This document shows, in pieces, positions 4,054 to 13,700 of a stretch of 21,511 nucleotides of DNA. A model generated the notes under the pieces. That model did no database searches. It saw nothing but the letters and a program-made list of their open reading frames with translations, and was not told the origin of the DNA. This stretch comes from a virus: positions 1 through 21,511 of the IMG/VR virus record IMGVR_UViG_3300045743_000096. One strand, given 5' to 3'. How positions within the stretch are numbered: the first letter of the stretch is position 1; each line of letters starts with the position of its first letter. The position numbers and the translations under genes were made by a program.

Positions 4054-4596
4054 TCACTCCCCAGAGTTCGAACCGCGGAATGCTGAGTCGTCGTGTGTTA
4101 CGCCGGCGCGCGTCTTCTCTTGGAAGCTGAACGATGGGTTCGCACCAGCCTCGACCAGAAGGTTGTCCCGGATCTCGCGATGCTTCTTCTCGTCAGCGAG
4201 GTACTGAAGGAACGAACGGTACGCTGCGGTCGTGTAGAACGCGAACGGATTGTCGGACTTCGCCGGATCGAACTTGTGCCAGTTCGCGCAAAGGTTCACG
4301 ACGGCAATCGAGACCATGTCCTCACGGAACGAGTACCCAGCAAAGGACGGCGAGAACGAGTACCGTTCCGCAATCATCCAGAGGTACTTCGCGAGCTTCG
4401 AACTCAGCTTGTACCCGTTTGCCTTGTCGGCGGCGATCGCCTCGATCAGCTGTGCGTTCGTGACGTAGTGTCCGCGCGTGCTGGTCGAACGTTCCTTCTT
4501 GACCTTGATCGGCTTCGGAGCCTTCACTGGCTTCTCGACCTTGGCTGGCTTGGTTACCTTGGTGTCTTCAGTTAGCTTTGCGGTCTTTGTCGCCAT
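4054..4596 (-). CDS. 55: Late-transcription sigma factor (T4 gp55-like)
   Basis: Phage sigma that directs host RNA polymerase to late promoters. The core (about residues 45-140) contains AERYSFSPSFAGYSFRED, a FDPAKSDNPFAFYTTAAY stretch and a basic FLQYLADEKKHRE. These correspond to the T4 gp55 segments with FNFSGY, NFDETKYKNPHAYIT and FVQRIKKERKE. The N-terminal 40 residues form a Lys/Pro-rich tail absent from T4. The C-terminus ends SAFRGSNSGE, without the hydrophobic-acidic tail by which T4 gp55 binds the sliding clamp. The ATG at 4596 (MATK) has GAGG 7-8 bases upstream. The ATG at 4608 is too close to its AGGA. It is the first gene of the minus-strand operon and faces the promoters it probably reads. 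Total 180 aa against 185 in T4. Confidence 0.92.
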   Translation of the reverse strand: MATKTAKLTEDTKVTKPAKVEKPVKAPKPIKVKKERSTSTRGHYVTNAQLIEAIAADKANGYKLSSKLAKYLWMIAERYSFSPSFAGYSFREDMVSIAVVNLCANWHKFDPAKSDNPFAFYTTAAYRSFLQYLADEKKHREIRDNLLVEAGANPSFSFQEKTRAGVTHDDSAFRGSNSGE

Positions 4597-4640
4597 GATG
4601 TTCCTCATTCCTAAGTGAGTTTAGTGGCGACTCAAGAATG

Positions 4641-4649
4641 ATTGTAACA
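4641..4649 (-). promoter_or_regulatory. Extended -10 promoter for the gp55-gp47-gp46 operon
   Basis: The minus strand reads TGTTACAAT, a TG-N-TATAAT-type extended -10 with one mismatch, about 45 bases before the gp55 start. No good -35 hexamer and no MotA box (GCTTTA) is seen at the usual distance, so it is best read as an extended -10 promoter for host sigma-70 polymerase. It is the only plausible promoter in the divergent gap for this strand. Confidence 0.5.
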
Positions 4650-4676
4650 CACTGTTGACCGCCCTCGATCGAAAAT

Positions 4677-4725
4677 CAGGATCTCCGGTGACTCATAAAT
4701 ACAGGACACTCACCGGAGCTACCTG
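4677..4725 (+). promoter_or_regulatory. Perfect inverted repeat enclosing a late promoter and covering the ribosome site of the nucleotidyltransferase gene
   Basis: CTCCGGTGA (4683-4691) is repeated inverted, without mismatch, as TCACCGGAG (4710-4718). An outer CAGG (4677-4680) pairs with CCTG (4722-4725). The 3' arm contains the GGAG Shine-Dalgarno of the gene starting at 4727. The late box CATAAATA lies in the 18-base loop. RNA entering from upstream can fold and bury the ribosome site, while RNA begun at the late promoter lacks the 5' arm. This is the arrangement described for T4 gene e. A DNA operator is the alternative reading. Confidence 0.75.
4694..4701 (+). promoter_or_regulatory. Late promoter box CATAAATA for the baseplate operon
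   Basis: Matches 7 of 8 bases of the T4 late element TATAAATA, followed by CAGGA. It ends 25 bases before the ATG at 4727. The expected start of transcription is about 4707-4710, inside or just before the 3' arm of the inverted repeat. It probably drives the six genes from 4727 to 10742. Confidence 0.75.
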
Positions 4726-4726
4726 T

Positions 4727-5428
4727 ATGTATGAACACGAACTGTTCGAAGAAACCGTCGGACAACAATCGAAGCCAGCAGTCGTGATGGTCGGTCGGAT
4801 GAACCCTCCAACGGGAGGTCACTACAAAGTGATCGACCTGATGAAGAAGTTCGCTCGGGAGAACAAGGGCGTGACGCCGATCGTTGTGGTCGTCGCTGGC
4901 GCCGGAACCTCGAAGGACCTTCACAAGAATCCGTTGTCGGCGGAGGACCGGATCAAGTTCATGACCGCCTCGAAGAAGGCGAACGGGATCAAGTTCATCA
5001 CCTCAGGTTCAGCGTTCGCCGCGTTCGAAGACGTTCGGAAGGCCGGGTACGAACCGTACGCGATCGCTGCTGGTTCAGACCGTGGCGCGAAGTACCTCGA
5101 GATGCTCGACAAGTACTTCACTGGACCAGAAGGTCAGAAGCTGAAGCACGTGATCATGCCTGGTCTTCAGGAACGTGAGGACCCAGATGACGATGGCACA
5201 CCATCAGAAGAAGTTCTTCAGATGGCCGAGAACGGCGAAGAGATTCCAGTGCACCTGATTTCAGGTTCGATGGCTCGTCTCGCTGTGAAGCTCGGCTTCA
5301 AGAAGGCGTTCGCGAAGATCCTGAGCGTTGATCAACAGCTCGCTGACATCATCTTCAAGAAGGTCGCAGCGGCCCTTGACACGCCAGCACCCGAACCAGA
5401 GAAGAAGCCAGCGAAGGCGAAGAAGTAA
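4727..5428 (+). CDS. Nucleotidyltransferase, NMN adenylyltransferase-like, late-expressed
   Basis: 233-aa member of the HxGH nucleotidyltransferase superfamily, which transfers AMP or CMP to a mononucleotide or alcohol phosphate. NMN to NAD+ is the most likely reaction but substrate is not fixed by sequence. Visible motifs are a first strand VVMVGRMNPPTGGH (19-32, with TGGH as the TxGH site) and ISGSMAR (178-184) as the second ATP-binding motif (ISxTxxR). The protein ends in a Lys/Pro/Ala-rich tail. The ATG at 4727 has GGAG 8 bases upstream; a TTG at 4655 lies before the promoter and is rejected. Residues 1-15 (MYEHELFEETVG) precede the fold and resemble the leaders of orf149 and orf250. It is oddly placed, heading a baseplate operon under a late promoter. 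No Nudix or NAMPT gene is in view. Confidence 0.85.
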   Translation: MYEHELFEETVGQQSKPAVVMVGRMNPPTGGHYKVIDLMKKFARENKGVTPIVVVVAGAGTSKDLHKNPLSAEDRIKFMTASKKANGIKFITSGSAFAAFEDVRKAGYEPYAIAAGSDRGAKYLEMLDKYFTGPEGQKLKHVIMPGLQEREDPDDDGTPSEEVLQMAENGEEIPVHLISGSMARLAVKLGFKKAFAKILSVDQQLADIIFKKVAAALDTPAPEPEKKPAKAKK

Positions 5429-10355: not shown

Positions 10356-10742
10356 ATGACATACGACCGAGCAACATACCGCGGGTTCAGCACTGCGAAG
10401 CAGCTTGAGACTCGTGGCGGAGCATTCAACACTGCTGACATCGAGACGGTGAAGCGCGATCTGCTGAATCACATCTACACTATCCCAGGCGAACGTGTGA
10501 TGGCACCGAACTTCGGCACTCGTATCCCGTTGATGCAGTTCGAACCATTGGACGAGAAGTCGATCAAGATCATCAAGGACGATCTCACGTTAGTGATGAA
10601 CTTCGACCCGCGAGTGCGCCTGATCGACATCGCTGTGCTCGCCCTACCAGATAACAACGCAATCGTCGCTCTAGTTGACCTCGAGTTCGTGAAGCTTGGC
10701 GTCACAGAAACGATGAAGCTTGAGTTCCCCGTGGGCGCATAA
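10356..10742 (+). CDS. 25: Baseplate wedge / sheath initiator (T4 gp25-like)
   Basis: 128-aa protein of the gp25/lysozyme-like baseplate family, which starts sheath assembly and contacts gp6. T4 gp25 has 132 aa. The core is DLLNHIYTIPGERVMAPNFG (36-55), then RIPLMQFEPLDEKSIKIIKD and FDPRVRLIDI, where the usual E-P-R motif reads D-P-R. The ATG at 10356 lies one base after the spike stop. A longer frame opening at 10248 only reads the end of the spike gene in another frame. The stop codon TAA at 10740-10742 is part of the late-promoter box for the next gene. Confidence 0.92.
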   Translation: MTYDRATYRGFSTAKQLETRGGAFNTADIETVKRDLLNHIYTIPGERVMAPNFGTRIPLMQFEPLDEKSIKIIKDDLTLVMNFDPRVRLIDIAVLALPDNNAIVALVDLEFVKLGVTETMKLEFPVGA

Positions 10743-10769
10743 ATATCTGACACGATCAACGGGCAGAAC
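10724..10769 (+). promoter_or_regulatory. Inverted repeat enclosing the gp6 late promoter and abutting the gp6 start
   Basis: GTTC-CCCGT (10724-10732) pairs with ACGGG-CA-GAAC (10759-10769): nine base pairs with a two-base bulge on the 3' side. The 3' arm ends directly at the gp6 ATG and includes the only G-rich stretch before it. The loop of 26 bases contains CATAAATA and the gp25 stop codon. Read-through mRNA from the upstream operon can hide the gp6 start, while late-promoter mRNA cannot form the stem. Ribosomes ending on gp25 would cover the 5' arm, which may modulate the effect. Confidence 0.6.
10738..10745 (+). promoter_or_regulatory. Late promoter box CATAAATA for gp6
   Basis: Seven of eight bases match the T4 late element, and TCTGA follows. 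The box ends 24 bases before the gp6 ATG and uses the gp25 stop codon TAA as its central bases, so coding end and promoter are fused. Confidence 0.72.
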
Positions 10770-13700
10770 ATGGCACTTCGCACCACGTACACAGCAGAAT
10801 CCTGGGACAAGATCTATCAGGCGTTCGCGGCTGTTAGCTTCGTCTCGTACGACTTCGACGCTATCAAGCAGAGCCTCGTTGACTACACCCGCACGTACTA
10901 CCCAGAGCAGTTCAACGATTACATTCAGAGCTCTGAGTTCATCGCGATGCTCGAGATGTTCGCGTACATCGCCGAGCAGCTCGCGTACCGTGTTGACATG
11001 GTTGCTCACGAGAACTTCATCACGACTGCTCAACGGAAGCAATCGATCCTTCGTCTGGCGAAGCTGATTTCGTACAAGGCGACACGGAACATCCCGGTCC
11101 GTGGCCTCGTGAAGTTGAACACAATCTCGACCACTGAGCGTATCCTGGACTCGCGCGGTGTGAACCTTTCTGGGATCACAATCACGTGGAACGATGCGAA
11201 CAACAGTAACTGGAAAGAGCAGTTCACGTTGGTGATGAACCGTGTGCTCGCTTCTCGATTCGGACAGCCGTCGAAGACCGTACAAGTCGGTGACGTGGTC
11301 ATGGACTTGTACTCGCTGAAGAACGATACAGCCTCATTCAAGAATGGTGTGTTCGGTTATACCGCGGCGACTGGTACTGAGTCGTTCCAAATGGAAGTTG
11401 TTCCAGCCGACATCGACTCAAATGGTCCGTTTGAACGCGAACCAGATCTGGCTTCATCGCTGTCATTGATTTACTCGAACGACGGGATCGGTGATGGTTC
11501 GGACTACACTGGGTTCCTGATGTTCACGAAGCAGGGCGCGCTGACTCGGATCGATTATCAGATCGACACGGCTCTCCCAGATCGCCGGCTTGACTTCGCA
11601 CCTGAGAACGTGAATCACACAGACGTCTGGGTTCAGAAGCTTGCGTCGGACGGTACGCTCGCCGAGCGTTGGAAGCAGGTCGATACCGTTTCTGAACAGA
11701 ACCTCGTGTTCAATGATGTTCGTACGTCCAGAAAGAAGTTCGAGGTCGATACGCGGGAGAACGATCAGATCACTGTAGTGTTCGGTGACGGCGACTTCAG
11801 CGACGCGCCAGTTGGCACGTTCCGTTTCTGGATGCGTCAGTCGGCGAACCGATCACTTGTGATTCAGAAGAACCGAATCGTGAATCAGGCGATGCCTTTT
11901 GGGTACACGAGCGCTATTGGGAATGCCGAGACGTGCACGATGTCATTCAGTCTGACGAGCACGCTTCAAAACGGTTCGGCTACCGAATCGATTGAACACA
12001 TTCGCCGTTCGGCACCTAGCACGTACTACGCTCAGAACCGAATGGTGAACGGGCAGGACTGCAACACGTACTTGCTGAAGGACCCGACGATCCTTCGACT
12101 GAAGACGATCAATCGGACGTTCGCCGGTCAACCGAAGTACATCGACTGGAATGATGCGTCTGGCCAATACGAGAACGTGAAGCTCTTTGGCGATGACCTC
12201 GTGATGAAGTACCAGATCGGCCTGAACACCCTCACGACCTCGGTGTCTGGCAAGAGCCTGATCGACGAAGTGATTGAGCCGCTGTTGAAGACTTCAGGTG
12301 TTGTGAATACTCTGCTTCACGTGTCAGCCGATGACTCAGATACTCGCGGCGTCGTCTCGGCCCCGCGCCGTAAGTTCATTGAGGACAATCGCGGTGATCG
12401 GTACTTTGACAAGATCGGCGATCCTGTTTCGGTGCTTGGTGCCGGTGACGGTTCGTTGAAAGAGAAGACGGCGATGCAAGGCCTGATCGACCGGCACTGG
12501 TACGGTGAGCCGTTGTCCCGTGTGCTCGATGCTTCTGGTACATTGCTTGGTGTGATCCCAGACCCAGGCAAGTTCCCAGAAGATGACTCCAGAATTTATG
12601 ATTCGACGCTTCCACGGACGATCGATGGTGCGAACAAGTACCCACCAGGTGACATCGGCTCTGGCATTCAGCCAGTCGCCGAACAGAACTACTTCGGCCT
12701 TCGTTACAACCGATTGATGCGCGGGGTCGGGAATGGCACGATCACGCCGGTGAACGGCACTTGGATCTCGAACGGGTACTGGCTTGCTGGTGAAGTATTC
12801 ACAATCGAAGTTCAGGCTGATGGTCTGACAATTGCCGTTCGGTCGAATCTTCGAGGCTCATTCCCAACTGGGACCGTGAACGATCTGTATTCGATTCAAC
12901 CGTCTGGGTTCAGCGAAGCTGTTCCGATGTTCACGCTGAATCAAACCACAACCTCTGGTGCTGTGCTACTCGCTGCCGGTGATGCGTTCATCCTCGACAC
13001 ACACGCGTCGACTGGGCTCAGTGATCCAATTCCATCTGGGGCTCTTGTCCGTCGAGTTCTTGGGGCATCGAACGGGAGCATTGGTCCAGTGAACTTGAAC
13101 GGCTGGTGGGAGATCATGGATGCGGCGTCGATGCCGGACTATGCCGCAAGCATGCAGCCGTCGCAAACGTTCACGATGTCTGAGACAACGGCTCCGAACT
13201 TGAAGCAACACTCGTGGACGATCTTCGTTCGCAAGATCCGTCAAACCGTAGGTGGCATTGTGATCGGGTACGAAGTTCACTACCGTGATCTGAAACTGAC
13301 TGTTCAATCACCGACTACAAAGTTCTGGTACAACGAAGTTGATCAGCTCCTCGACGGGAACACAAAGAAGCGTGTGTTCGACAACATCAAGATCCTTGGG
13401 TCGAACGTCGCGTCTAAGCAGACTCAAGCCATCAAGAAGAATCAGACGTACGACGTCGTCGGTGCTGTTCGGAACTCTGATGGCATTATCGACTTCAGCC
13501 AGCTCGAGATTGTTCCAACTGACCTGCTTCAAGAGGACTCGTCTGGCGACCTGATCCCAGATCGACTGCTTCAGTTCGAGACTTTTGCTGTTGATAGCTA
13601 CGAGTACTTCCTCGTCGGTGGCGGGGCGGCTGTGTCGACAGCCGCTGGCGAAGCGGCAACCTGGGCGCCTGGCGCAACGATCGATAACTCATTGACGTAC

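Follow-up and report, generated by a model that had tools for sequence, protein, structure and literature searches.

The late promoters of phage T4 consist of a box placed about one helical turn from the start site, with no -35 element (PMC2988020), and the consensus of this box is TATAAATA in T4 and NATAAATA in the cyanomyoviruses (PMC2984593). In the T4 genes e, soc, 49 and I-TevI, hairpins hide the ribosome site or the AUG in longer transcripts, and the pairing of these hairpins is not universal among T4 relatives either (PMC3014915).

The locus considered here belongs to an IMG/VR virus record of 21.5 kb, which was analysed over its whole length and is referred to as the window. A first-pass annotation had proposed that it carries an RNA timing switch of the T4 type, with a late promoter in the loop of a perfect hairpin that covers the ribosome site. 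This attractive hairpin story has been put to test against relatives, and the point that survived is a conserved back-to-back arrangement of a putative gp55 promoter and a putative gp55-dependent promoter in an uncultured T4-like phage lineage. The preferred reading, to which a probability of roughly 0.7 is given, is thus a T4-type late promoter located back to back with a host-sigma-type promoter of gp55, the hairpin being a local feature with no demonstrable role.

Late promoter candidate upstream of the cytidylyltransferase gene

The identities of the genes at this locus were obtained directly from the matches given in Table 1. As T4 does, the window phage encodes gp55; homologues of gp47 and gp46 come leftwards of this gene, and virion structural and baseplate genes come after the cytidylyltransferase/NMNAT-like gene, which starts at ATG 4727. 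The divergent orientation of gp55 and this downstream gene, pointed out in the first-pass annotation, was borne out. No match to the hairpin/promoter region was found in a phage nucleotide database, no curated Rfam family matched positions 4400-5000 up to E=1, and a search for a terminator at the locus found none.

Table 1. Features of the gp55-cytidylyltransferase intergenic region and its flanking genes (positions of the window).
Feature	Position	Strand	Basis or remark
gp55, late sigma factor (T4-type)	4054-4608	minus	PHROG 234 E=2e-29
TGTTACAAT, putative extended -10 type promoter element of gp55	4641-4649	minus	sequence; plus-strand ATTGTA at similar spacing in relatives
5' arm CTCCGGTGA	4683-4691	plus	perfect complement of 4710-4718; identical only in 97% relative
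Competing hairpin TCATAAATACAGG / CCTGTATGTATGA, covers start codon	4693-4705 / 4722-4734	plus	12/13 pairs
CATAAATA, gp55-dependent late promoter candidate (-10 type box)	4694-4701	plus	fits NATAAATA/TATAAATA consensus
Predicted 5' leader of late mRNA, about 20 nt, without 5' arm	4707-4726	plus	T4 rule
3' arm TCACCGGAG, holds Shine-Dalgarno GGAG (4715-4718)	4710-4718	plus	
Cytidylyltransferase/NMNAT-like gene, putative late gene	4727-5428	plus	PHROG 3041 E=8e-16; Pfam PF01467 E=8e-5

The box CATAAATA is 25 nt from the ATG, and the motif ATAAATA appears twice in the window against 0.18 occurrences expected. Both the octamer, which resembles TATAAATA and precedes a gene start, and its distance from a short leader, ribosome site and ATG are like those of the late promoters of T4 and cyanomyoviruses (gp55/gp33/gp45 in T4). 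Unlike the T4 late promoters, its first position is C instead of T and it is placed divergently from the gp55 gene. Homologues of the cytidylyltransferase/NMNAT-like gene and of gp55 were drawn from viral contigs, and a late-type octamer with a following ATG frame was observed directly at the gp55-divergent position in 65 of the 81 gp55 loci examined. This conservation bears out the late promoter of the first-pass annotation, and CATAAATA is a strong, well-supported candidate judged by its sequence and context. Applied here, the T4 spacing of about one helical turn between box and start would place the beginning of the late transcript near position 4707, downstream of the 5' arm.

A second copy of CATAAATA (10738-10745) overlaps the preceding frame at its end, 24 nt ahead of a baseplate wedge gene that begins at 10770. 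At L170/L017 the late promoter divergent from gp55 is kept with a different gene directly behind it, and the NMNAT-like gene (L039) sits further on.

The inverted repeat and its pairing in relatives

The mismatch-free 9-bp inverted repeat was confirmed, with a spacer of 18 nt, as were the location of the box in its loop and of GGAG in its 3' arm and the outer pair CAGG/CCTG (4677-4680/4722-4725). A late promoter within a stem-loop that has the ribosome site in its 3' strand is also the design of the T4 genes e, soc, 49 and I-TevI. Mismatch-free inverted repeats 9 bp or longer, with loops of up to 40 nt, are not rare in the window: nine were found (about one every 2.4 kb) versus 3.7 in shuffled sequences; a repeat that spans a late promoter and a ribosome site is less common than perfect repeats in general. 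The flank-leader duplex at this site (-21.9 kcal/mol) was better than those of 300/300 shuffles (p=0.003), was matched by 0.3% of mismatched flank/leader pairs of late promoters, and ranked strongest among the 48 late-promoter sites tabulated.

A search of viral contigs for the exact arms gave a sole match, the sibling contig L026, with 97% protein identity, and the stem is therefore common to two sequences only. The next relatives by protein identity (L174/L003, 82%; L028, 77%; L029, 76%; L162/L030, 71%) keep the octamer, the ribosome site and the gene and have lost the arm pairs, which is the pattern that the first-pass annotation had itself named as contrary to its proposal. Compensatory changes, for which it had recommended looking, were not in excess: pairs altered on both sides were no more frequent than expected among the relatives. 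The reported structure was paired in 57% of the cells of the alignment of relatives versus 49% in shuffles. In this respect the repeat differs from the hairpins of T4 e, soc, 49 and I-TevI, as its pairing stops at the 97% relative. L174 has another stem of nine pairs, two of them G-U, that adjoins the ribosome site rather than covering it, and of the pair L067/L042 one member has a perfect 8-bp stem that is broken in the other.

Stems were counted in 47 non-redundant relatives. Upstream flank-leader stems with 6 or more Watson-Crick pairs numbered 9 (7.0 expected), and those over the ribosome site 5 (2.8 expected). Across the relatives, stems with 7 or more pairs including G-U were 26 versus 17.2 expected, so a weak stem tendency may exist in these phages; this excess is counted against the preferred reading. 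Stem conservation was not significant with within-site shuffles (Z=-1.5, reversed-sequence control -1.25) or with a GC-stratified permutation (p=0.13), and no stem signal was detected in 35 other late promoters. The family-wide energy for opening the ribosome site gave p=0.02 without GC control, and accessibility of the Shine-Dalgarno sequence by itself gave p=0.09.

A family-wide hairpin, suggested by an unstratified flank-versus-leader permutation (p=0.0023), was rejected after this control of composition, because matched flank and leader pairs have a common GC content.

A short complementarity recurs in the leaders of several relatives (L184, L188, L190, L195 and L229): the late box is preceded by CCTGAT or one of its variants, and the ribosome site consists of TCAGGA or CAGGA.

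Comparison of the window with L026 revealed 79/79 identical sites over positions 4640-4718, including 43/43 outside the repeat, against 78% identity at the fourfold-degenerate sites of the gene and 77% over positions 4609-4639. Constraint therefore acts on the promoter-to-promoter block and not on the arms alone. On these sequence comparisons, the hairpin is a local trait of the window phage and one sibling, without demonstrable role.

Pairing that arose by chance, helped by the GC-rich leader, has a little less than an even chance of being the origin of the hairpin; it concerns this origin only and is compatible with the preferred reading. The frequency of perfect 9-bp repeats in the window and the near-expected rate of Watson-Crick stems in the relatives are in agreement with it, and the p value of 0.003 at the site argues against it, as does the fact that the sibling has kept the block in full, although the non-hairpin sequence is equally conserved. 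The unusual strength of the hairpin and its complete maintenance in L026 are also counted against the preferred reading.

The first-pass annotation had offered as an alternative that the repeat is a DNA operator, a site for a repressor or activator between the two promoters. A perfect palindrome between divergent promoters, identical in the sibling, would suit such a site, but half-sites with up to one mismatch were at chance level in the 21.5-kb window (9 versus 6.7 expected), the repeat is not conserved in the other relatives and no candidate regulator was identified. This alternative was left unsupported and is considered very improbable.

Predicted folding and the proposed timing switch

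The segment contains a competing hairpin, absent from the first-pass annotation, that spans the start codon and cannot form together with the reported stem. It is the minimum-energy fold predicted for positions 4660-4745, whereas in the segment 4676-4760 the reported stem is favoured (-23.0 versus -20.1 kcal/mol for the competing hairpin). One pair of the competing hairpin is broken in L026.

In a switch like those of T4 e, soc and I-TevI, a long plus-strand RNA would fold and hide GGAG and/or the AUG, and the late RNA starting at about 4707 would be translated. The box, arms and GGAG fit this geometry exactly, the arms are identical in the sibling, and the T4 genes e, soc, 49 and I-TevI are known precedents (PMC3014915). 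By prediction, a helix over the ribosome site or AUG would form only in the longer RNA, in which opening the ribosome site requires 13.5 kcal/mol compared with 2.6 kcal/mol if transcription starts near 4707. However, foreign upstream flanks placed before the same leader still give 11.1 kcal/mol on average and the native arm adds only about 2.4, so the 5' arm is not the source of most of this effect.

The long RNA of such a switch would have to be antisense to gp55 or come by read-through from far upstream. No plus-strand gene lies upstream of the repeat in the window, where the genes left of gp55 are on the minus strand, and no plus-strand sigma70-like promoter was found in positions 4500-4900. 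The long leftward frames of the relatives examined are also mostly on the minus strand, an approximate count because frames overlap on both strands, and no upstream sense gene was evident in them. Judged by this gene layout, there is no known read-through mRNA that needs silencing, unlike in T4 e, soc, 49 and I-TevI, and here the upstream gene is divergent. Together with the loss of the arms in the 71-82% relatives (L026 keeps the pairing; L174, L162, L029 and L028 do not) and the lack of a composition-corrected stem excess in the 47 relatives, this makes the switch unlikely. Of the original proposal, the geometry and the late promoter stand, whereas an evolved switch finds no support, as the arms are unconserved and no upstream sense gene is evident; a timing switch is possible solely as a property of the window phage and its sibling.

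Proposed divergent promoter pair with gp55

The preferred reading of two back-to-back promoters relies on their spacing, which was measured directly. In 33 of 53 loci (4.1 expected) a sigma70-like -10 box for gp55 was separated from the late octamer by 51-65 bp, with 52-54 and 60-63 bp as the commonest spacings; in the window phage the distance between the two boxes is about 53 bp. At these distances the polymerase footprints should overlap, and a competition between the host-sigma and the gp55 polymerases is plausible. Mutual exclusion of two initiating polymerases at such a spacing is likewise a plausible consequence.

In the proposed mechanism, host RNA polymerase with sigma70 would transcribe gp55 leftwards early in infection. 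Later, the gp55-bearing polymerase would fire rightwards at CATAAATA into the cytidylyltransferase/NMNAT-like gene, producing an mRNA with a short leader and a free GGAG. Only one of the initiation complexes should be able to form at a time, and firing of the late promoter may damp the transcription of gp55. If this competition is real, the locus would provide the late switch with a simple point of feedback. A broader version, in which the fixed-spacing pair is a self-limiting switch by polymerase exclusion and the hairpin additionally silences antisense or read-through RNA in this phage, is considered quite unlikely.

The order gp55, then gp47 and gp46, is shared with Prochlorococcus phage P-SSM2 and Synechococcus phage DSL-LC02. 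Both cyanophages have a gene of the same orientation as gp55 ahead of it, whereas a divergent late gene occupies this position in the window phage, and therefore the divergent pair is not general to T4-like phages. In XacN1 the upstream gene at gp55 is divergent, as in the window phage.

A leftward TATTTA box was also found upstream of gp55 in several relatives (L159, L160, L161, L164, L167, L168 and L170), between the gp55 -10 box and the late octamer; in most of them it is separated from the -10 box by about 17-18 bp. From its sequence, this box may serve gp55 as a late promoter of its own, with a possible autoregulation of this gene.
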